A stretch of DNA of 64,000 nucleotides, from assembly GCF_039545795.1 (NCBI RefSeq), contig NZ_CP154260.1:5647001-5711000 (forward strand), in the 5' to 3' direction. The notes under the pieces were generated by a model. The model saw only the letters and a list, made by a program, of their open reading frames with translations, did not search any database and was not told the DNA's origin. This document shows positions 26,821 through 54,629 of this stretch, in pieces. How positions within the stretch are numbered: position 1 is the first letter of the stretch; every line of letters begins with the position of its first letter. The translations under genes were made by a program, and so were the position numbers. The DNA is from Chitinophaga niabensis. Its GTDB lineage: Bacteria > Bacteroidota > Bacteroidia > Chitinophagales > Chitinophagaceae.

Positions 26821-27696
26821 TTATTCTTTATTCTTAAATACCAGCTGGCCGTCCTTTGCTTCAATTTGGATGTTCATAGTGATGGACAATGCCCGCGAAA
26901 GCTGCGTGATATCCTCTGCGTAAAGATCCCCGCTGATCTTTTTGTGGTTGATCTCGTCGTCTAAGACCAACACTTCATAGCCGAATTTTGTTAAGATGAT
27001 GGATGATATCTCTGCAATAGAAGTATTTTCAAAATGATACCGGTGATTCCGCCAGTCTGCTATTAACTCTGTATTCACGGCTTCCCGGAGTTTGGATTGA
27101 TGTTTTTCCACCTGCACTTCATCTCCCGGTTTCATCATAAACACCTTATCACTGGCTGTCAGCTGTACCTTTCCCTCTTTCAGGGAAACGGTGGTGCGCG
27201 CGCCTAACATATTCACATTGAACTTTGTACCCAATACCGCTACGTCAATTTCATCCGTATGTACAATGAACTGTGCATTCCCCGCACCGGGCTTTTTGGT
27301 GATCTCAAAGTAAGCCTCCCCATCCAGCCAAACACTACGGCTTTCCGCAGGATCCCACTCCATGGGTATACGCAATGTGGAGTTCGCATTAAGGTAGACG
27401 ATCGAACTGTCCGGAAGTACCACCTGTTTGATCTCCCCATAGGCAGTATGGTAACTCTTGGTGCTATTGGAAACAATCGTACAATAGATATTATAGGCTG
27501 CATACCCCAGTAATGGCAACAACACGGCTGCTGCCAGGGCCCTTACAACAATACGCCTTACCATCCCGGACTTTTTCCGGGAAATAGCCGTTTCAATCTG
27601 CTGCCAGCTTTCTTTTGTTTTTTCTTCCGGCACTGCTTTACGCCGGAAGCGGATAGGAGAACTGCCTGGATCTTGCGGTACGGATGGATCTTCCAT
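26821..27696 (-). CDS. FecR-family anti-sigma factor
   Basis: A 291-residue inner-membrane anti-sigma/signal transducer. The cytosolic N-terminus (about 1-45) includes KESWQQIETAISRKK. One transmembrane helix follows (about 46-70, VVRALAAAVLLPLLGYAAY). The periplasmic FecR domain (about 85-190) has YGEIKQVVLPDSSIVYLNANSTL and RSVWLDGEAYFEI, and the C-terminal domain 218-291 is DUF4974-like (FENTSIAEISSIILTKFGYEV). It lies between the sigma and SusC genes and should hold the sigma factor until SusC's STN domain signals substrate. Confidence 0.92.
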   Translation of the reverse strand: MEDPSVPQDPGSSPIRFRRKAVPEEKTKESWQQIETAISRKKSGMVRRIVVRALAAAVLLPLLGYAAYNIYCTIVSNSTKSYHTAYGEIKQVVLPDSSIVYLNANSTLRIPMEWDPAESRSVWLDGEAYFEITKKPGAGNAQFIVHTDEIDVAVLGTKFNVNMLGARTTVSLKEGKVQLTASDKVFMMKPGDEVQVEKHQSKLREAVNTELIADWRNHRYHFENTSIAEISSIILTKFGYEVLVLDDEINHKKISGDLYAEDITQLSRALSITMNIQIEAKDGQLVFKNKE

Positions 27697-27758
27697 AGCG
27701 TGTTTTATTAGAAGACACGCAAACAGGCACCGGGATACTCCTTTTCAGGGAACTTTTT

Positions 27759-28346
27759 TTAAAATAAATGCAGGAACAGCCACCATAAAGGGATATGCCC
27801 CATCATTCCCCTGAGCTGGGTGAGGGCCTTATGGGCTAAATTGATCACGGACTGGTAATTCACTTTCATGATCTCCGCTATTTCTGTATAAGAAAGCTCT
27901 TCATAAAAGCGCAAATAGATCACTTCTTTCTGCCGCCGGGGTAACTGATTGAGGTACTGGCTGATCCTGGACTGCCGTTCTGTGGTTTGCTCCTGTTCTA
28001 TAATAATGTCCTCCGGCGAAAATGCGATATCGGGTTCGCTGGGGGGTAAGATCTGGAGGGTACGTAACCCGCGTAACTGGTTGAGTGCCTGCCGCCGGAG
28101 GGCCGTGAAGAAAAAAGCCCGCACATTCTGTAGCAGGCCAATGTTTTCTTTTTTATACCATATACGAATAAACACTTCCTGCACCGCATCCTGCGCAACA
28201 TCTTCATTACCAAGCATGGCGAGTGCATACCGGTATAATACCGGATGTAATTGACCGTGAATGCCGGCATACGCTCTTGCATCTCCCTGGAGCACAAGTT
28301 GCCAGGAACTGGTCAGGTCTTCACCCTGTTCATAGGCATCCGGCAT
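27759..28346 (-). CDS. ECF sigma factor controlling the downstream SusCD
   Basis: A 195-residue ECF sigma-70 factor. Region 2: AYAGIHGQLHPVLYRYALAMLGNEDVAQDAVQEVFIRIW and NVRAFFFTALRRQALNQLR. Region 4: LNQLPRRQKEVIYLRFYEELSYTEIAEIMKVNYQSVINLAHKALTQLR. It ends in a hydrophobic IPLWWLFLHLF tail. It is followed 63 nt later by its FecR partner and then SusCD, the common Bacteroidota regulatory arrangement for nutrient uptake. Confidence 0.92.
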   Translation of the reverse strand: MPDAYEQGEDLTSSWQLVLQGDARAYAGIHGQLHPVLYRYALAMLGNEDVAQDAVQEVFIRIWYKKENIGLLQNVRAFFFTALRRQALNQLRGLRTLQILPPSEPDIAFSPEDIIIEQEQTTERQSRISQYLNQLPRRQKEVIYLRFYEELSYTEIAEIMKVNYQSVINLAHKALTQLRGMMGHIPLWWLFLHLF

Positions 28347-28417
28347 GGGTGAGCTTGGGTTTTTTATTGGAATGTGGAATCGCTGTCACTTCATGTAAAA
28401 TAACGAATCTCATCGAA

Positions 28418-28708
28418 ATAAAAAGGAAAAGGCACAAGCTGAAGCTTGCGCCCGTTATATTAGCAGCATATTCCTATAAGGCGTTTTTGAATGATGCGGG
28501 AAGCAGAACACGGAAAAAAAGTGCCCTGCATCCGCACCTCCGCTTGCGTGTAGCGGGGAGGTTTGTCAATCTAAAAGATCTCAGTTCTCAGTAAACATAG
28601 CGTGTACGCCATTACCATGCTGGCGGCAGCATGCACGGGTATTGCTATTTATCGGATCAGGCAATTGGGGGCTTACTCCGGGGTCGTTTACTTCGCAATT
28701 AGTTTCCT
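28418..28708 (-). ncRNA. candidate small RNA upstream of the sigma factor
   Basis: On the minus strand, TACCTTTG (28721-28714) matches the -7 consensus, predicting a start near 28708. About 290 nt downstream, a 10-bp stem GGCGCAAGCT/AGCTTGTGCC (28431-28452) is followed by TTTTCCTTTTT, a standard terminator. Inside, CCTC-CGCT pairs with AGCG-GAGG (28537-28561). No frame longer than about 15 codons is present. It could equally be a leader of the sigma gene with premature termination. Confidence 0.3.
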
Positions 28709-28742
28709 TGCAGCAAAGGTAGAAGGCTTTGATCTAAAGCCA

Positions 28743-28759
28743 ACCACATAAAGATGTGA
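28743..28759. promoter_or_regulatory. ACCACAT-N4-ATGTG dyad, copy 1
   Basis: ACCACAT-AAAG-ATGTGA, centred 57 nt upstream of the kinase -7 element and about 70 nt upstream of its likely transcription start. It shares a 12-base stretch (CCAACCACATAA) with copy 2 at the end of the kinase gene. It is a candidate binding site for the neighbouring LuxR-type regulator. Confidence 0.5.
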
Positions 28760-28807
28760 AATGTCTTTTTTAATGCTTCAATTGCTGAATTAATGGAATT
28801 AAGCAAT

Positions 28808-28815
28808 TATTTTTG
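28808..28815 (+). promoter_or_regulatory. -7 element of the histidine kinase gene
   Basis: TATTTTTG matches TAnnTTTG and lies 16 nt before ATG 28832. Confidence 0.5.
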
Positions 28816-28831
28816 AGGAGAGCATTAATCT

Positions 28832-31800
28832 ATGTACATGATCCGCAAGGAAAAGCAGCTGCTACTCTCTGTGTTGTTCCTGCTTTTTCAACTGGCTGCA
28901 AAGCCCCAATCCCAATCTTATCTCTTCTCCCGCCTCAATGTGGAAGACGGTTTGCGCAGCAATTATGTGACGGCCATTTTCCAGGATACCAAAGGTTTTA
29001 TGTGGATAGGTACGGAAGGAGGGCTCCAACGCTACGATGGCAAACAATTTGAATACTTCCCCTTTGAGGGCATACCGGAGATCTATCATGAAAAGGTACA
29101 GCGCATCCTGGAAGGAAAGAACAATACCCTCTGGATCGCTTATAACTCCTGCATCGTCACCTATAATTATGTAACAGGCAAAGCACGCAAAATACTGGTT
29201 CTGCACCAGCATATTGAAAAGAACTTCCAGGCCACGCAGTTCTTTATAGACAGTCGTGGTAACACCTGGCTCTGCACTACAGACCACGGTACTTTTTTGT
29301 ATGAAGAAAAAGCACTGGCATTCATCCCCTTCTCTAAATTCTTCGCCCCCGCCGGTTTCAATATCGTCAATGTAGCAGAGGACCCTGTTACGCATAATTA
29401 CTGGCTGGGTACCAATATCGGGATCTGTATGCTGGACTATGCGCAGAAGATCTGTTATACGCCACAGAACAATCCCCGTAACATTCCGCTCCTGAATACC
29501 CCGCAGCTACAGGTAAACGTTACCCGTTTATTCGGCAGTTCCAAACGTGGCCTGTTCATTAATACCTGGCTTCGCAATGCAGAAAGGCCCCGTTTCTATC
29601 ATTATGATCTGCAAACCGGGGTGCTCACAGAACAGCATAAAGACCAGGGCCATATGTCCCAGTTGATAGAAGATAGCCGCGGGAATATTTGGGCTGCAGG
29701 AGACCGCTTACTTCGATTCACCCCGGATGGCCACCAGCTGGAGATATTCGAACGTAACCAGTTCGCCCGCAATGGCCTGGACTATTCAGAGATGTTCGCC
29801 CTCGCAGAAGACAATATGCAGAACCTCTGGATAGGTACCAGCAATGGCCTGTTCATCTTCAATTATGCCAAACAGCAATTCCATACAGTGATCTACTGGC
29901 CGGAGAGTTACAAACACTCGCCCCCTTTACTGGAAGCCACTGATATCTGGCAACATCCTAATGGAGACGTATGGGTGAGCAGCTGGGGATATGGGGTACT
30001 GGTATTCGACAGTTCCATCACCCGGTTAAAAAAACGCCTGTTCCACCCCTCCAATACTACCATCAACATGGCCTTTTGCATGTTGCCCCTGCCGGATGGA
30101 AAAGTACTGATCGGCGCACAGCATGCTAACCTATGGATCGTAGATCCCAAAACATGGAAAGTGGAATACCGTGTATTGAAAGAACTGGATAACCGCTCCA
30201 TCCGTTGCATGACGCTGGACAAACAGGGGAAGGTATGGCTGGGCACACAAAGAGGTATCGTAGCAAAATGGGACCTCCAACGTAATAACATCCGCACTTT
30301 CACAGATAGTTTTTATACGCAGGGCCGTTATCTCTGGAACCATATTCAGGATATTTATGCAGACGAGGATAATTTCATCTGGGTAGGTACCATGTACAAT
30401 GGCCTGTTGAAAATGGATACCGCCGGCCATGTAATGCAACGTTATGCAGCTGATGAACGCGCTCACCTCTTACCCACCAGCGATATCCGCAACATCTTCC
30501 CCATGGGAGATCACAAACTCCTGATCGCAGCAGGCGGCATCGTACTGCTGGATACGAAAAAGGATAAAGTGCTTTCAACTATTACGCAGGAAGATGGATT
30601 GCCCGTTGGCGCCATCACCAATGTGCAGCCCCTCAATGATCAGAACATCCTGTTCACTACAAACTTCAGCGCAGGCAAAGCTAATCTCACCAAACGCAAA
30701 GTAGTGCACTACGGCAGGAAATACGGGATTGCAGATGAAACCTTTGAATCCCCCGCCAGTTACAAACTGCGGGATGGCCGCGTAGTGTTGGGCAGTACCA
30801 AAAACATTATCTTCTTTGAACCGGATAGCCTGCAGGACCCTGTTCCGCCTCCTGATGTACGCATCCATTATTTTAAAACAGACGGGGACCTGGTGACGCC
30901 TTATCAGCCCATGATGGAGAATGCTGATCCCGAAATAAACCTGCGGTACCAGGATTGCAATTTCACCATCGGTTATATTTCCCTCGCCTATCTCGAACAG
31001 GATAATCTCAGTTATTCTTACCGTTTAGAAGGAATAGACAATGGCTGGGTAAAAGCAGGCAACCGCAGGTATGTGACCTACACCAATCTTGCTCCCGGCA
31101 CTTATACCTTCCAGGTATATTGCGAGAACGGAGAAGGCATGCAAAGCCAGCACATCACTTCCATCCGTATTGTACTGGCTTCGCCTATCTGGCAGAAAGG
31201 ATGGTTTTACGGGCTGATCATATTACTCATCGCCGGCATCATTTATCTCATTCACCGCATCCGTGTGAATCGTATCATGTCCACCGAAAAAGTAAGGCGT
31301 CGCATTGCACGGGACTTACATGATGATATGGGCTCCACGCTCACTTCCATTAATATCATGAGTGCCATGGCCAGGAGGAACGCAGCCCTGGCAGACCTCA
31401 GTAAAACACAGGAATTCCTGGTGAAGATCGGCGACAGTACCACCCGCATGATGGAAAGCATGGACGATATTGTGTGGAGCATCAACCCCATGAACGATAA
31501 CCTGCAAAGAGTGATTGCCAGGATGCGTGAATTCACAACAGGTGTACTGGAAGGCCGGCAGATAGCATTCACATTTTCCATCGATGATAAGATCTTCAAC
31601 CGCAGGCTGCAACTGGAAAGCCGGCACGACTTCTTCATGATCTATAAAGAAACCATCACCAATATCGCCAAATATGCCCAATGTACTTTTGTAGACATCC
31701 GCATTCAGTTACGCAAAGGCAAACTGGTACTACGTGTACAGGATAACGGCGTAGGCTTTGATGTGAATGATGCAAATGAAGGAGATGGATTGATGAATAT

Positions 31801-31894
31801 GCAACGCAGGGCACACCGCATGAAAGGCCATCTTAATATTCAGTCACAACCCGGAAAAGGCACCGTGATCACGCTCATGTTCCCAACCACATAA
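28832..31894 (+). CDS. two-component propeller sensor histidine kinase
   Basis: A 1020-residue membrane kinase. A signal/anchor (about 1-26) is followed by a periplasmic sensor made of repeated propeller units (NYVTAIFQDTKGFMWIGTEGGLQRYDG, IEDSRGNIWAAG, DNMQNLWIGTSNGL and more). A Y_Y_Y domain comes next (about 700-780, LSYSYRLEGIDNGWVKAG), then one transmembrane helix (about 790-808). The cytosolic HisKA_3 domain has phospho-acceptor His830 in RRRIARDLHDDMGS, followed by a HATPase (DNGVGFDVN, GDGLMNMQRRAHRMKG). Unlike classic hybrid systems it has no receiver domain; the receiver is the next gene. Such sensors usually detect glycan fragments. Confidence 0.93.
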   Translation: MYMIRKEKQLLLSVLFLLFQLAAKPQSQSYLFSRLNVEDGLRSNYVTAIFQDTKGFMWIGTEGGLQRYDGKQFEYFPFEGIPEIYHEKVQRILEGKNNTLWIAYNSCIVTYNYVTGKARKILVLHQHIEKNFQATQFFIDSRGNTWLCTTDHGTFLYEEKALAFIPFSKFFAPAGFNIVNVAEDPVTHNYWLGTNIGICMLDYAQKICYTPQNNPRNIPLLNTPQLQVNVTRLFGSSKRGLFINTWLRNAERPRFYHYDLQTGVLTEQHKDQGHMSQLIEDSRGNIWAAGDRLLRFTPDGHQLEIFERNQFARNGLDYSEMFALAEDNMQNLWIGTSNGLFIFNYAKQQFHTVIYWPESYKHSPPLLEATDIWQHPNGDVWVSSWGYGVLVFDSSITRLKKRLFHPSNTTINMAFCMLPLPDGKVLIGAQHANLWIVDPKTWKVEYRVLKELDNRSIRCMTLDKQGKVWLGTQRGIVAKWDLQRNNIRTFTDSFYTQGRYLWNHIQDIYADEDNFIWVGTMYNGLLKMDTAGHVMQRYAADERAHLLPTSDIRNIFPMGDHKLLIAAGGIVLLDTKKDKVLSTITQEDGLPVGAITNVQPLNDQNILFTTNFSAGKANLTKRKVVHYGRKYGIADETFESPASYKLRDGRVVLGSTKNIIFFEPDSLQDPVPPPDVRIHYFKTDGDLVTPYQPMMENADPEINLRYQDCNFTIGYISLAYLEQDNLSYSYRLEGIDNGWVKAGNRRYVTYTNLAPGTYTFQVYCENGEGMQSQHITSIRIVLASPIWQKGWFYGLIILLIAGIIYLIHRIRVNRIMSTEKVRRRIARDLHDDMGSTLTSINIMSAMARRNAALADLSKTQEFLVKIGDSTTRMMESMDDIVWSINPMNDNLQRVIARMREFTTGVLEGRQIAFTFSIDDKIFNRRLQLESRHDFFMIYKETITNIAKYAQCTFVDIRIQLRKGKLVLRVQDNGVGFDVNDANEGDGLMNMQRRAHRMKGHLNIQSQPGKGTVITLMFPTT

Positions 31895-31906
31895 CCATGT
31901 GGTTGG
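31883..31906. promoter_or_regulatory. intercistronic hairpin and ACCACAT-N4-ATGTG dyad, copy 2
   Basis: CCAACCACAT-AACC-ATGTGGTTGG, a perfect 10-bp inverted repeat spanning the kinase TAA. There is no T-tract, so it is not a normal terminator. An ATG at 31897 lies in the right arm and would be occluded, which supports the regulator start at 31951. Confidence 0.55.
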
Positions 31907-31950
31907 CAGAACCGGTCAGGCATGTTACCTTTACCGAACATTCCATTACC

Positions 31951-32583
31951 ATGATTCGAATTGTGTTATACGAGGATAACACCAAACTGCGAGAGAACTT
32001 AACATTACTGATCGATGGAGCAAACGACTTTATAGTATGCGGCGCATTCAAGAACTGCGACCATATTCTGCAACAAACGCAAGAGCTGCTTCCTGACGTA
32101 ATATTAATGGACATCGATATGCCGGGTACCAATGGCATTCAGGGCCTACGGATCATCCGTTCACAATACCCCGATCTTCCCATTCTCATGCTCACGGTGT
32201 TTGATGATAACCAGCATGTTTTTGATGCCATCAAAGCGGGTGCAGATGGATACCTCCTGAAAAAAACATCCCCCGAAAAATTACTGGAATACATACACGA
32301 AGTATATGAAGGCGGTGCCCCCATGACCTCTTCTATCGCCCGGCAGGTATTACATCTCTTTGCCCGCCAGCCTTCTGACAAGAATGATACCTATCATCTT
32401 TCAGAGCGGGAAAAAGAAGTGCTGCAATTACTGGTAAATGGTTACAGTTATAAAATGATCGCGGGAGAGATCTTCATTTCTATAGATACCGTACGCTCAC
32501 ATATTAAAAAGATCTACGAGAAATTACATGTTAACTCAAAATCGGAAGCTGTAGCCAAGGCCTTCAGGGACAAGCTGGTGTAA
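31951..32583 (+). CDS. NarL/LuxR-type response regulator
   Basis: A 210-residue regulator from ATG 31951 (MIRIVLYEDN). Receiver domain at 1-120 with acidic pocket Glu8-Asp9, phospho-acceptor Asp54 (LMDIDMPG), Thr/Lys switch positions in MLTVFDD and YLLKKTSPEKLL. The C-terminal LuxR-type helix-turn-helix lies at about 145-205 (LSEREKEVLQLLVNGYSYKMIAGEIFISIDTVRSHIKKIYEKLHV). It is the cognate partner of the kinase ending 56 nt upstream. Regulators of this family bind inverted repeats, and three such repeats flank this gene and its neighbours. Confidence 0.93.
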   Translation: MIRIVLYEDNTKLRENLTLLIDGANDFIVCGAFKNCDHILQQTQELLPDVILMDIDMPGTNGIQGLRIIRSQYPDLPILMLTVFDDNQHVFDAIKAGADGYLLKKTSPEKLLEYIHEVYEGGAPMTSSIARQVLHLFARQPSDKNDTYHLSEREKEVLQLLVNGYSYKMIAGEIFISIDTVRSHIKKIYEKLHVNSKSEAVAKAFRDKLV

Positions 32584-32683
32584 GCAACATGCTTCAAAAA
32601 CCATAGTCAAGGCTTTTAAACACCGATCTGGTTTTCACATTCCCATCTAGTTACAACCACTCATCCTCACACGTTCGTTGTAA

Positions 32684-32700
32684 ACCACATCGATATGTGA
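32684..32700. promoter_or_regulatory. ACCACAT-N4-ATGTG dyad, copy 3
   Basis: ACCACAT-CGAT-ATGTGA lies 53 nt before the predicted start of the YD-repeat lipoprotein gene. Same half-sites and same 4-nt spacing as copies 1 and 2, suggesting that the lipoprotein belongs to the same regulon. Confidence 0.5.
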
Positions 32701-32752
32701 TTGTATGCTACCCCCAACTGTTGCAATTTTACAGCAACGGAAACCTAATGAC

Positions 32753-33508
32753 ATGCTTTTTAACACCCCCCTTGTGGCAGTGCTATGCATCGCCATGATC
32801 ATTTCTTGCAGGAAGGACCCCAAACCCTTGCAGCCAAATAACAATAGGTTATTGCTGAGAGTGGCAGCAGCGGATAACAACAAGGTTGATAAATTCCAGT
32901 ATGACGCGCAAGGCCAGGTGATCAGGTTTTTCTATTACCGTGGTTATGGAGACACTGCTCACCAGGAGTATACATACAAGAACAACCGCCTGCATAAAAT
33001 AATCCATTACAACGCAGAGTTCTCTGAATACTTCTATGCAGGAGATACCCTGAAAAAAATGGAGATCAGCGATGTCAACGATGGGGTAACAAACTATGTA
33101 ACATACAGCTACCGGAACGGCAAGCTGGATGAAGAACAAACATATCACCGGGAAAATGGCCAATGGGTACCGCAGCAGAAAAGAACGTACGACTATGATG
33201 CAAAAGGAAATGTTCATAAGATAGATACATACCTCGGGCCGGATCTTCAGGGAACGATCGAATATGCCCGTTACAGTGATCATCCGGATCCGTTAGAGGG
33301 TATCATACAACAAAAATACACAAAGGGGCTGCCCCGATGTGTAGAGAAAGAAATTCATTATGATGGATGGGGGAATATTGAATGGACAACGGAATACACT
33401 TATGAATATGATGCAAAAGGATACCCCCTGAAAAGAGAAACGATCTCCCGCAACCCGGATAATAATGTATTGGCCAGGTACACTGTTTTTTATTCATATG
33501 CTAATTAG
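32753..33508 (+). CDS. lipoprotein with YD/RHS-like repeats
   Basis: A 251-residue lipoprotein from ATG 32753; the signal ends IAMIISC with the lipobox Cys at about residue 20, then RKDPKP. The mature part contains repeated Tyr/Asp units (KFQYDAQGQVIRFFYY, EYTYKNNRLHKIIHY, KRTYDYDAKGNVHKI, EYTYEYDAKGYPLKRE), like YD-repeat or RHS-type strands but short and without a toxin tip. It is expected in the periplasm or on the cell surface. A dyad shared with the upstream two-component genes precedes it. Function unknown. In-frame upstream Met codons lack a signal peptide. Confidence 0.75.
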   Translation: MLFNTPLVAVLCIAMIISCRKDPKPLQPNNNRLLLRVAAADNNKVDKFQYDAQGQVIRFFYYRGYGDTAHQEYTYKNNRLHKIIHYNAEFSEYFYAGDTLKKMEISDVNDGVTNYVTYSYRNGKLDEEQTYHRENGQWVPQQKRTYDYDAKGNVHKIDTYLGPDLQGTIEYARYSDHPDPLEGIIQQKYTKGLPRCVEKEIHYDGWGNIEWTTEYTYEYDAKGYPLKRETISRNPDNNVLARYTVFYSYAN

Positions 33509-37569: not shown

Positions 37570-37577
37570 TAGGTTTG
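37570..37577 (+). promoter_or_regulatory. -7 element of the cobalamin operon
   Basis: TAGGTTTG matches TAnnTTTG directly upstream of the riboswitch. It is preceded by the 6-bp dyad GATATT-N4-AATATC (37553-37568). Confidence 0.6.
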
Positions 37578-37582
37578 CCCCC

Positions 37583-37790
37583 GGTAAACGGTTGCCCTTA
37601 GAAGATATCCTTCTTCTATCAGGCATTAATAGGGAATCCGGTTCAATTCCGGAGCTATCCCCGTAGCTGTGATCCTGCTTCCTTATCTTTCTCCATAAGG
37701 AATGTTTTTCGGACGCTTCAACCACTTCTCATAACGGGAGGGAAGGTCAATCCGGAAAGCAGGAAAGCCAGAAGACCTGCCGTATACCCA
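37583..37790 (+). promoter_or_regulatory. cobalamin (B12) riboswitch
   Basis: The sequence shows the class core: GGTAAACGGTTGCC at the 5' end, GGGAATCCGG...TTCCGGAGCTATCCCCG in the middle, CTGTGATC, GGGAGGGAAGGTC, and the B12 box GCCAGAAGACCTGCC at 37767-37781. It precedes a BtuB-type receptor. Binding of adenosyl- or methylcobalamin should lower expression of the operon. The following 107 nt form the expression platform (next entry). Confidence 0.93.
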
Positions 37791-37897
37791 TTTTATCAGT
37801 CCGCGCTTTCGGGTGAAAAGCGGAGGGTGTAATTGCCTGTTCGAAACGGCATTCTATACTTTTCAGTATCTCCCTTGCGTGTAATTAAAACAATTAC
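37791..37897 (+). promoter_or_regulatory. riboswitch expression platform with alternative start-codon pairing
   Basis: A hairpin lies at 37801-37823. GTGTAATT occurs twice (37827-37834 and 37879-37886), and each copy can pair with AATTAC (37892-37897) that abuts the ATG at 37898. No T-tract is present, so control by start-codon occlusion is more likely than termination. This is a reading of complementarity, not a fold calculation. Confidence 0.45.
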
Positions 37898-39808
37898 ATG
37901 AAAAAAAACATCTACACACCAATCGCAATTGCCATGCTGGCAATGGGCCACGCTGGCTTCGCGCAGGATTCTTCGCGCGTATCGCAACTCAACACCGTAG
38001 TAGTTACTGCTACCAAATTCGCCAAAAAACAAAGTGAAACCGGTAAGGTGCTCACCGTTATTGGCCGTGAACAAATTGAAAGGAACATCGGCCGCTCTGT
38101 AAGTGATGTACTGAATGAACAAGCCGGCATCGTGATCAATGGCGTAGGTTCCAACCCCGGTAAAAACAAAGAACTGTATTTCCGCGGTGCCACTTCTCAA
38201 TATACCACTATCCTCTTAGATGGTATCCCCGCTGCAGATGCTACCGGCCTTACCGGTAATGCCATCGACCTCCGCTTTATGCCGGTAGACCTCATCGAAA
38301 GAATTGAGATCCTGCGCGGCACACAATCTACATTGTATGGTGCAGATGCCATCGCCGGTGTGATCAACATCATCACTAAAAAAGGCGGCGTAAAACCCAT
38401 CAGTGGTTTCGGCAACCTTACCTGGGGCAGCAACCGCAGCCTGAAAGGAACAGTTGGTCTGCGCGGCCACCAGGAGAATGTTGACTACAACGTGAGCTTC
38501 ACCCACTTTGAAACAGATGGTATCTCTGAAGCCGCACCGCATGATACGGTGACCAATCCGCAATTCGACAAGGATGGTTACAAACAGAATGCCGTGATGG
38601 TAAACCTCGGCATCCAGGCTACAGAACAGCTGAAACTGCAACCCTTCTTCGTATACTCTGATTACAAAAGCTCTTACGATGGCGGCCCATTTGTGGATGC
38701 CCTGAAGAACACTAACAAATCAGATCTCATCCATACCGGTATCCGTGGTATCTATGACCTGAACGGTAAAGGAGAAATACGCGCCAATTTCGGCTACCAG
38801 AAAGTAACACGCGTGGATGAAAGCCAGTGGGGAGTACTTCCCCTGGACGGCCGTTCTTACTTCGCGGATGTGTATGGTCACTATAGCATCAATGACTGGT
38901 TCCAGGTACTGGCAGGAGTGGAATATCGTAAAGCGGAACTGATAGACACAGTTAATTTCCTTGTCAACAAATTCAGTGCACGCTCGCTATTCAACACCAG
39001 CCCTTACGTGTCTGTATTCATTAAAAACCTGCATGGCTTCAGCTTTGAAGCTGGCGGCCGTTATACCCTGCATTCCAAGTTCGGCAACAACTTCACTTAC
39101 AGCCTCAACCCTTCTTACCTGGTGTCTGATAAGCTGAAACTGTTTGTGAACATCTCTTCCGGATTCAAGGCACCTACTTTAACTGCGCTCTATGCTTCTT
39201 ACGGAGATGAGAACCTGAAAGCAGAAAAAGCCACCAGCTACGAAGCCGGCTTCCAGACCTTCCTCATAAAAGATAAACTGGATCTCCGCGTAGTAGGATT
39301 CAAACGTGATATTAAAGATGTGATCGCCTACATCGGCAACAAGTACATGAACTTTAACAAGCAGAACGATAAAGGAATAGAAGTGGAACTGGCTGTACAT
39401 CCTGCAAAAGGCCTGGATGTGAAAGTATTCTACGCTTATGTGGAAGGACAGGTAACTACCAGGGCCGGTACAAAAGATACCACCTACAATAACCTCGTAC
39501 GCCGTCCTAACCACAGTGGTGGTTTGAACATTGCTTACCAGGTATTACCGAAAGTATTAGTAAGCACCAATATCCGCCAGGTAGGTACCAGGAACGATCT
39601 GTACTTTCCGCCATGGCCAAATCCTTCTCAGAATGTTGAGCTGAAAGCCTACACCATCTGGGATATGTATGCAGAATACCGCTTCTCTGACAATGGCCGT
39701 TTATTTTTTAATGCAAATAATATCACCAATAACAAAAAATATTGGGAAATTTACGGATACTCCGTGCAAGGCTTTAACATGCAGGCCGGAATATCTTTCA
39801 GTTTGTAA
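37898..39808 (+). CDS. btuB: BtuB-like TonB-dependent vitamin B12 receptor
   Basis: Outer-membrane cobalamin importer of 636 aa. Signal peptide 1-22 (ends GFAQ), then the TonB-box-like VVVTATK at about 33-39, plug to about 165 (SVSDVLNEQAGIVINGVGSN, RGATSQYTTILLDGIPAAD, RIEILRGTQSTLYGADAIAGVINIITKKGG) and a barrel ending with QAGISFSL (terminal residues typical of outer-membrane proteins). The plug resembles BtuB. The cobalamin riboswitch immediately upstream fixes the substrate as a corrinoid. It is the first gene of the B12 operon. Confidence 0.9.
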   Translation: MKKNIYTPIAIAMLAMGHAGFAQDSSRVSQLNTVVVTATKFAKKQSETGKVLTVIGREQIERNIGRSVSDVLNEQAGIVINGVGSNPGKNKELYFRGATSQYTTILLDGIPAADATGLTGNAIDLRFMPVDLIERIEILRGTQSTLYGADAIAGVINIITKKGGVKPISGFGNLTWGSNRSLKGTVGLRGHQENVDYNVSFTHFETDGISEAAPHDTVTNPQFDKDGYKQNAVMVNLGIQATEQLKLQPFFVYSDYKSSYDGGPFVDALKNTNKSDLIHTGIRGIYDLNGKGEIRANFGYQKVTRVDESQWGVLPLDGRSYFADVYGHYSINDWFQVLAGVEYRKAELIDTVNFLVNKFSARSLFNTSPYVSVFIKNLHGFSFEAGGRYTLHSKFGNNFTYSLNPSYLVSDKLKLFVNISSGFKAPTLTALYASYGDENLKAEKATSYEAGFQTFLIKDKLDLRVVGFKRDIKDVIAYIGNKYMNFNKQNDKGIEVELAVHPAKGLDVKVFYAYVEGQVTTRAGTKDTTYNNLVRRPNHSGGLNIAYQVLPKVLVSTNIRQVGTRNDLYFPPWPNPSQNVELKAYTIWDMYAEYRFSDNGRLFFNANNITNNKKYWEIYGYSVQGFNMQAGISFSL

Positions 39809-54557: not shown

Positions 54558-54629
54558 GGCCTCGTCGTACAATGGATAGTACATTAGTCTCCGAAGCTGA
54601 TGATCCAGGTTCGATTCCTGGCGAGGCTA
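54558..54629 (+). tRNA. tRNA-Arg (anticodon CCG)
   Basis: A 72-nt cloverleaf by hand folding. Acceptor stem GGCCTCG/CGAGGCT with discriminator A, D-arm GTAC-AATGGATA-GTAC, anticodon arm TTAGT-CTCCGAA-GCTGA giving anticodon CCG (reads CGG), and T-arm CCAGG-TTCGATT-CCTGG. CCA is not encoded. The gene is followed by a terminator and then the SMEK gene pair, so this tRNA 3' end could have served as an integration point; no duplicated tRNA end was found. Confidence 0.93.

Follow-up and report, generated by a model that had tools for sequence, protein, structure and literature searches.

Predicted operators of a NarL-type two-component system and a divergent candidate small RNA in Chitinophaga niabensis

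The inverted repeat ACCACAT-N4-ATGTG occurs three times within 4 kb of a 64,000-nucleotide (nt) stretch of the Chitinophaga niabensis genome (contig NZ_CP154260.1, positions 5,647,001 to 5,711,000), which we call the window and whose numbering is used below. The copies lie around the genes for a sensor kinase, a NarL-type response regulator and an RHS/YD-repeat lipoprotein. Comparison with other genomes makes it very likely that these sites serve as operators for the neighbouring regulator, which would activate its own system together with a compact output of lipoproteins and one small RNA (sRNA).

An earlier sequence-only reading of this DNA had reported the three copies with equal spacing, and exact matches to the 16-mer were indeed found on the forward strand at 28743-28758, 31886-31901 and 32684-32699. 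Their cores, CACAT-N4-ATGTG, to which no strand is assigned, occupy 28745-28758 (copy 1, common to the kinase promoter on the forward strand and a divergent promoter on the reverse strand), 31888-31901 (copy 2, in the gap between kinase and regulator) and 32686-32699 (copy 3, with an exact core). Being an almost complete palindrome (31883-31906), copy 2 also matches the 16-mer on the reverse strand: the perfect 10-bp stem described earlier is present as CCAACCACAT/ATGTGGTTGG at 31883-31892 and 31897-31906 and spans the kinase stop codon (31892-31894). None of 100 dinucleotide shuffles of the window contained the 16-mer. The genome-wide search that had been proposed as a check returned three places only in 7,201,998 bases, all of them in the 4-kb locus, and none for the reversed-pattern control. 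As about 0.9 matches would be expected by chance in a genome of this size (an arithmetic estimate), three within 4 kb are not due to chance. The looser 14-base core was found at 11 places, compared to 3 for the reversed pattern; these comprise the three copies of the locus, one site at a distal lipoprotein gene and seven inside long open reading frames (ORFs).

Each copy lies upstream of a gene start once the starts are corrected. The sensor kinase (28832-31894, forward strand) matches all four domains expected of a HisKA_3 kinase with a Reg_prop sensor, namely the Reg_prop beta-propeller, Y_Y_Y, HisKA_3 and HATPase_c. The regulator (31951-32583, forward strand) carries both the receiver (Response_reg, 4.5e-25) and the helix-turn-helix (HTH) domain (GerE, 1.6e-17) of the NarL/FixJ type. 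Its start is most likely 31951 and not 31897, because the receiver domain begins with MIRIVLYEDN; the Response_reg match starts at residue 22 of the longer frame. Copy 2 therefore precedes the regulator start and lies outside its frame, and its surroundings are the promoter region of the regulator itself. By sequence, NarL and VraR are its closest relatives of known structure. Against NCBIfam, the best score of the regulator was 142.9 compared to the NarL cut-off of 250, and among the best 25 of 108 families it stayed below the cut-off throughout. For the third gene (32753-33508, forward strand), which has a weak RHS/YD-repeat match, the start was corrected from the signal sequence and a lipobox read by eye, and copy 3 ends 53 nt before this ATG (32753), the distance stated in the sequence-only reading.

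We then compared promoter geometry in the genus. When the sites were aligned and TAnnTTTG was scored at every offset, one offset stood out for each promoter class (in what follows, G and L numbers denote genomes and loci). At the regulator gene, the −7 box TACCTTTA (31926-31933, forward strand) lies 24 nt after copy 2, and at least five of six positions match in 11/11 genomes. The same offset was the best of its class at the YD lipoprotein gene, where the weak box CAATTTTA (32724-32731, forward strand) follows copy 3 and 7/9 genomes reach at least 5/6, and it was found in 10/10 genomes at the promoter of the distal lipoprotein. The kinase box TATTTTTG (28808-28815, forward strand) lies 49 nt after copy 1 and matches at 5/6 or better in 10/11 genomes. 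The centre of copy 1 is thus 60 nt before the middle of this box, at about −67, close to the upstream activator position of about −70 claimed earlier. On the reverse strand, the divergent box TACCTTTG (28714-28721) is 23 nt from copy 1, an offset kept in 10/11 genomes, the eleventh (G015, locus L132) having 24. A conserved RTTG adjoins the downstream half-site. Its distance of 26 nt to the −7 box, measured to the centre of the box, corresponds to −33, and the dyad is accordingly centred near −42. According to PMC7366714, the primary promoter of Bacteroides, recognised by sigma-ABfr, has TAnnTTTG at −7 and TTTG near −33. The promoters described here resemble those sigma-ABfr promoters of Bacteroidota in their −7 box and in the RTTG located 26 nt upstream, centre to centre, but differ in that the −33 element is fused to the downstream half of the operator. 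Copies 2 and 3 were found to have the arrangement predicted for class II activator sites, with the operator abutting the upstream promoter element at a fixed spacing.

Among 60 Chitinophaga genomes, 11 encode the regulator with at least 80% identity; a further 19 genomes added four with 77-86% identity, one with an internal stop and one partial, giving 15/79 in total. A tally of oriented 16-mer matches gave 48 in the 11 regulator-bearing genomes compared to 8 for the reversed pattern. In the other 49 genomes it gave 52 compared to 46, which is the background level in the absence of the regulator. The core of the kinase site is intact (10/10) in 11/11 genomes and that of the regulator site in 10/11, with 9/10 in G015. 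The third site is present in 9/11; in G006 the contig ends there and G015 has none. Thus, of the ten other genomes with the regulator, eight retain the site at all three positions, and these two retain it at two. In G036, G025 and G006 the similarity of the kinase is confined to the C-terminal 231-243 residues, and the site stays though the sensor differs. At loci L078, L080, L084 and L209 the kinases match only in the C-terminal part and operators are conserved, an apparent loss or swap of the sensor.

To look beyond the genus, genome contigs were scanned with peptide patterns and the best 80 of 362 loci, with regulators of 62-97% identity, were taken. The genera among them include Chitinophaga, Niastella, Sediminibacterium, Algoriphagus, Cyclobacterium, Maribellus and Arenibacter. 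One locus with too little flank (L136) was dropped and 79 were compared. The best core was sought 35-120 nt upstream, TT after the site counting as half a point and the −7 box playing no part in the choice. A core of at least 9/10 was found in 59/79 relatives, compared to a mean of 0.30 per shuffled set. The −7 box followed at 24 nt in 69/79 and at 23 nt in eight, the mean at other offsets being 0.48. Both features together, with the box at 24 nt, occurred in 50/79 loci and in none of 20 shuffled sets. The consensus of the relatives is ACAT-N4-ATGTGATTG-N20-TAnnTTTG, in which the downstream half is much better conserved. In addition, 46 intact cores lie more than 400 nt upstream, presumably in the kinase promoter, and there the −7 box is mostly found after 38-41 nt (32 hits). 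This spacing in other genera is about one helical turn shorter than the 49 nt of Chitinophaga, the sites being centred near −67 here and mostly near −57 there.

The whole genome was also searched for the composite signature of operator, RTTG, 20 nt and −7 box with up to three mismatches. Only three places were found (one for the reversed control). Two are the promoters of the regulator and the YD lipoprotein. The third, at 2,159,369 of the genome and 3.5 Mb from the locus, precedes a gene for a small lipoprotein of about 134 residues that has no match in Pfam or NCBIfam. This distal lipoprotein is encoded in 12/79 genus genomes, all of which belong to the 15 that have the regulator with at least 77% identity. 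All 12 carry its site, with a core of 10/10 in 11 and 9/10 in G003. Because the genomes are related, this pattern is one of co-occurrence and not of independent gain. An efflux operon (identified by eye) that is divergent from the distal site was considered as a further target and is not claimed, as its −7 box has no conserved offset. Past the regulator gene, the wider set contains 31 intact cores, and a −7 box follows at 23-24 nt in 23 cases. In other genera, operators with the box at 24 nt precede genes encoding a beta-lactamase-family protein (L150), an extracytoplasmic function (ECF) sigma factor (L156), a cytochrome c (L184) and a lipoprotein with an RHS match (L195). Lipoproteins resembling the last by eye, without a Pfam match, are encoded behind the operator at L147 and L198. 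The sequence-only reading had predicted the sites to be those of the regulator and the lipoprotein gene to be a third member of the regulon. Co-occurrence with the regulator, retained sites, the fixed spacing, the control with paralogous regulators given below and the lipoprotein of L195 all support this prediction.

The divergent promoter at copy 1 points to a further product. A candidate sRNA gene of about 290 nt extends on the reverse strand over 28420-28708, its start being estimated from the −7 box. Beyond this box the candidate is mostly variable, with a near-invariant core of 35 nt near the 3′ end (GCCTTATAGGAATATGCTGCTAATATAACGGGCGC, 28448-28482, reverse strand). A terminator hairpin (28430-28453, reverse strand) is followed by a T-rich run, so that the candidate has its own promoter-like box and an intrinsic terminator. 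The core was found in 14/79 genus genomes, always as one copy, 12 without a mismatch and two with one. Four-fold sites of the regulator gene agree in only 34/78 to 41/77 cases between this genome and seven more distant ones, and the conservation of the core is therefore not a matter of simple recency. Folding of the RNA from the window was better than that of shuffled sequences (z = −3.01; 2/200 as good), and none of 16 base pairs showed two-sided changes. No reading frame is open in all 11 sequences compared, and one through the core is open for at least ten codons in eight of them. The window search of Rfam gave no match to the candidate at gathering level, and below it (28300-28850, E up to 5) matches were at chance level only, the best with 18.2 bits compared to 111.

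Two genomes, G012 and G061, carry the core (loci L207 and L208) and have no regulator above 46% identity; nothing at their RNA loci matches the kinase or the regulator. No operator precedes the RNA in either, and by eye a TAnnTTTG box remains. Conversely, G015, G066 and G070 have the regulator and lack the core. A covariance model of the 3′ part of the RNA, run with stricter filters on 394 family genomes, gave hits in seven: three are true hits within the genus, and four are weak (E 9.7e-5 to 6.8e-4), appear by eye to be unrelated terminators and have no core of 9/10 or better nearby. At the sensitivity of the covariance model, the candidate RNA thus looks limited to a clade. Duplexes of the core with the start regions of the kinase, regulator, YD lipoprotein and distal lipoprotein messenger RNAs (mRNAs) were unremarkable in 20 sequences (z −1.63 to +1.60 against mononucleotide shuffles, with the lipoprotein starts placed between a few and about 20 nt too early), and we therefore propose no target. 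Here and in the near twin G053, an additional strong hairpin with a T run at 28514-28565 (reverse strand) might terminate transcription early and give a shorter RNA. The candidate RNA is followed directly, on the same strand, by a gene pair for an ECF sigma factor and a FecR-type anti-sigma factor (26821-28346).

These features suggest that the divergent element is an sRNA gene in its own right, controlled by the regulator in this Chitinophaga clade. It might instead be the leader, the 3′ end or a small-ORF mRNA of a neighbouring gene, which we regard as unlikely but still worth keeping in mind, since the ECF sigma factor gene follows from 28346 and a frame through the core (PYRNMLLI) is open for at least ten codons in 8/11 sequences (all except G003, G056 and G059). 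However, the element has its own −7 box, and its terminator with T run comes before the sigma factor gene. The PYRNMLLI frame arises from the conserved core itself, differs upstream among the sequences and in G032 runs through a stop. Moreover, the core is single-copy and persists in G012 and G061 at loci without the kinase or regulator.

From these sites we infer a simple circuit. On a signal, the propeller kinase would phosphorylate the regulator, a dimer of which would bind AACCACAT-N4-ATGTGRTT and activate, not repress, transcription. Activation would be of class II at the promoters of the regulator, the YD lipoprotein and the distal lipoprotein, where the site near −42 abuts the RTTG-like −33 element 24 nt before the −7 box, and of class I at the kinase promoter, with the site centred near −67. 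Copy 1 would in addition serve the divergent promoter from about −41, again as a class II site, from which the candidate RNA would be transcribed and act. The outcome would be positive autoregulation combined with a compact set of output lipoproteins, to which this Chitinophaga clade would add one sRNA.

A number of observations weigh against this circuit. In C. niabensis itself, the −7 box behind copy 3 matches in 4/6 positions only; 8/31 intact cores beyond the regulator have no −7 box at 23-24 nt on that strand; and G003 and G036 retain YD promoters although no YD homologue is detectable there. The genomes of the clade are related and counts from them represent non-independent events, while two of the six words used to search for relatives lie in their HTH, which inflates the helix invariance seen in 78 aligned relatives. 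In addition, five relatives (L086, L089, L091, L092 and L093) have a second NarL-type regulator of about 33% identity, whose gene is preceded by the same operator but lacks the 24-nt spacing. Paralogous regulators of 44-48% identity also have a related dyad, ACAT-N5-TGT, 72-93 nt before the match at 8/18 loci (L029, L030, L032, L036, L037, L038, L041 and L045), mostly as AACAT-N4-GTGTT. Cross-binding by another regulator is therefore possible. Taken further, the sites might belong to another factor altogether, a paralogous NarL protein or a CRP/FNR-like protein (ATGTGA contains TGTGA), and adjoin the two-component genes by chance. We consider this very unlikely, because genomes without the regulator hold the 16-mer at control level only and the distal target co-occurs with this regulator. 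The paralogs moreover differ in both dyad and recognition helix: a core of at least 9/10 was found within 300 nt upstream of 0/18, the best being 8/10 in two, and at helix positions 183, 186 and 187, occupied by S, K and K in the relatives of this regulator, they have R, H and N in 13/18. The paralog dyad is doubled in four loci, and a −7 box follows at 23 nt in two and at 24 nt in none. These differences fit paralogs that possibly have operator variants of their own. A CRP site is arranged as TGTGA-N6-TCACA, in which the half-sites are oriented the other way compared to those found here, and a paralogous NarL protein is less easily excluded as the owner than a CRP-like one.

The regulator could also bind these sites and repress, the dyad occluding the −33 region in a negative autoregulation. 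That the site abuts the −33 element at class II promoters is in line with such a role and speaks against activation. However, activators act from positions near −67 and −57, where lone repressors are seldom found, and the positions of the kinase sites here and in other genera therefore favour activation, leaving repression improbable. Least plausible, in our view to the point of being hardly credible, is that the copies are RNA hairpins, intercistronic or in a 5′ untranslated region, that act on the mRNA and not on the DNA. Copy 2 would form its perfect 10-bp stem inside any read-through transcript of the kinase gene, and the inner four pairs are mostly kept in the relatives (broken in 5, 11, 1 and 14 of 79), but a palindromic DNA site gives the same pattern. 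Further out, breaks are frequent: counted from the centre, pair five is disrupted in 31/79, pair six in 37 and pair seven in 41, and at pair six C.A mismatches (23) outnumber G.U pairs (11). The downstream arm is far better conserved than the upstream arm, and sites that lie upstream of −7 boxes are outside the transcripts predicted to arise from those promoters. A second role of copy 2 as an intercistronic hairpin, suggested in the sequence-only reading, is thus unsupported, and we reject it because the outer stem is not kept. Activation by the neighbouring regulator remains the reading we prefer.

The regulator matches the solved NarL/FixJ regulators (NarL, 1a04; VraR, 5hev; ChrA, DevR and DesR) over nearly its full length, with residues 4-206 aligned for NarL (E 1.3e-30) and 1-209 for VraR. 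The NarL operator has a 7-2-7 arrangement, whereas the half-sites described here are separated by a 4-bp spacer. A response-regulator site that feeds an sRNA promoter is also known from two-component-controlled sRNAs elsewhere, such as GacA-RsmZ and PhoP-MgrR, to which the divergent element would be similar. In Bacteroidota, prediction of operators by comparison is an established method, and the regulons of Bacteroides hybrid two-component systems (HTCS) were predicted in this way by comparative genomics, as set out in PMC3878776. The present system resembles HTCS in the large periplasmic sensor on its kinase. It differs in that HTCS join the kinase and an AraC-type regulator in one chain, while here the genes are separate and the regulator has a GerE HTH, and in that HTCS operators are direct repeats with long spacers, compared to the inverted repeat found here. 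A literature search that covered few subscription journals, and that included the accessible parts of PMC7366714, PMC3878776 and PMC9723704, gave no description of this operator or RNA, and the sRNA family attached to the system is probably new.

Each Chitinophaga genome has dozens of related regulators (between 40 and at least 51 matches per genome), and no operator was found in the literature for this one. With the operator, the promoter geometry and a short list of targets fixed by comparison, the regulator, its signal and the candidate sRNA become directly testable, and the phylum can be scanned with the promoter signature, which spans about 46 bp. We lean, by a modest degree, towards a wider interpretation. 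The locus would represent an uncharacterised two-component system, found across the phylum and activating its own expression, in which a single conserved operator is fused to the −33 element of class II promoters. It would deliver small lipoproteins as output and, within one clade of Chitinophaga, an sRNA family that is new and has the near-invariant 35-nt core as its targeting region. The RNA would have outlived the regulator in two species, where a −7-like box is kept and the operator is missing, and in paralogs the corresponding position may be taken by variants of the dyad, which would amount to a readable operator code for the group.

Elsewhere in the window, a cobalamin riboswitch (37572-37798, forward strand, 85.8 bits) was found just upstream of an ORF of 636 amino acids at 37898, and a transfer RNA gene at 54558-54629 (forward strand, 61 bits in Rfam).

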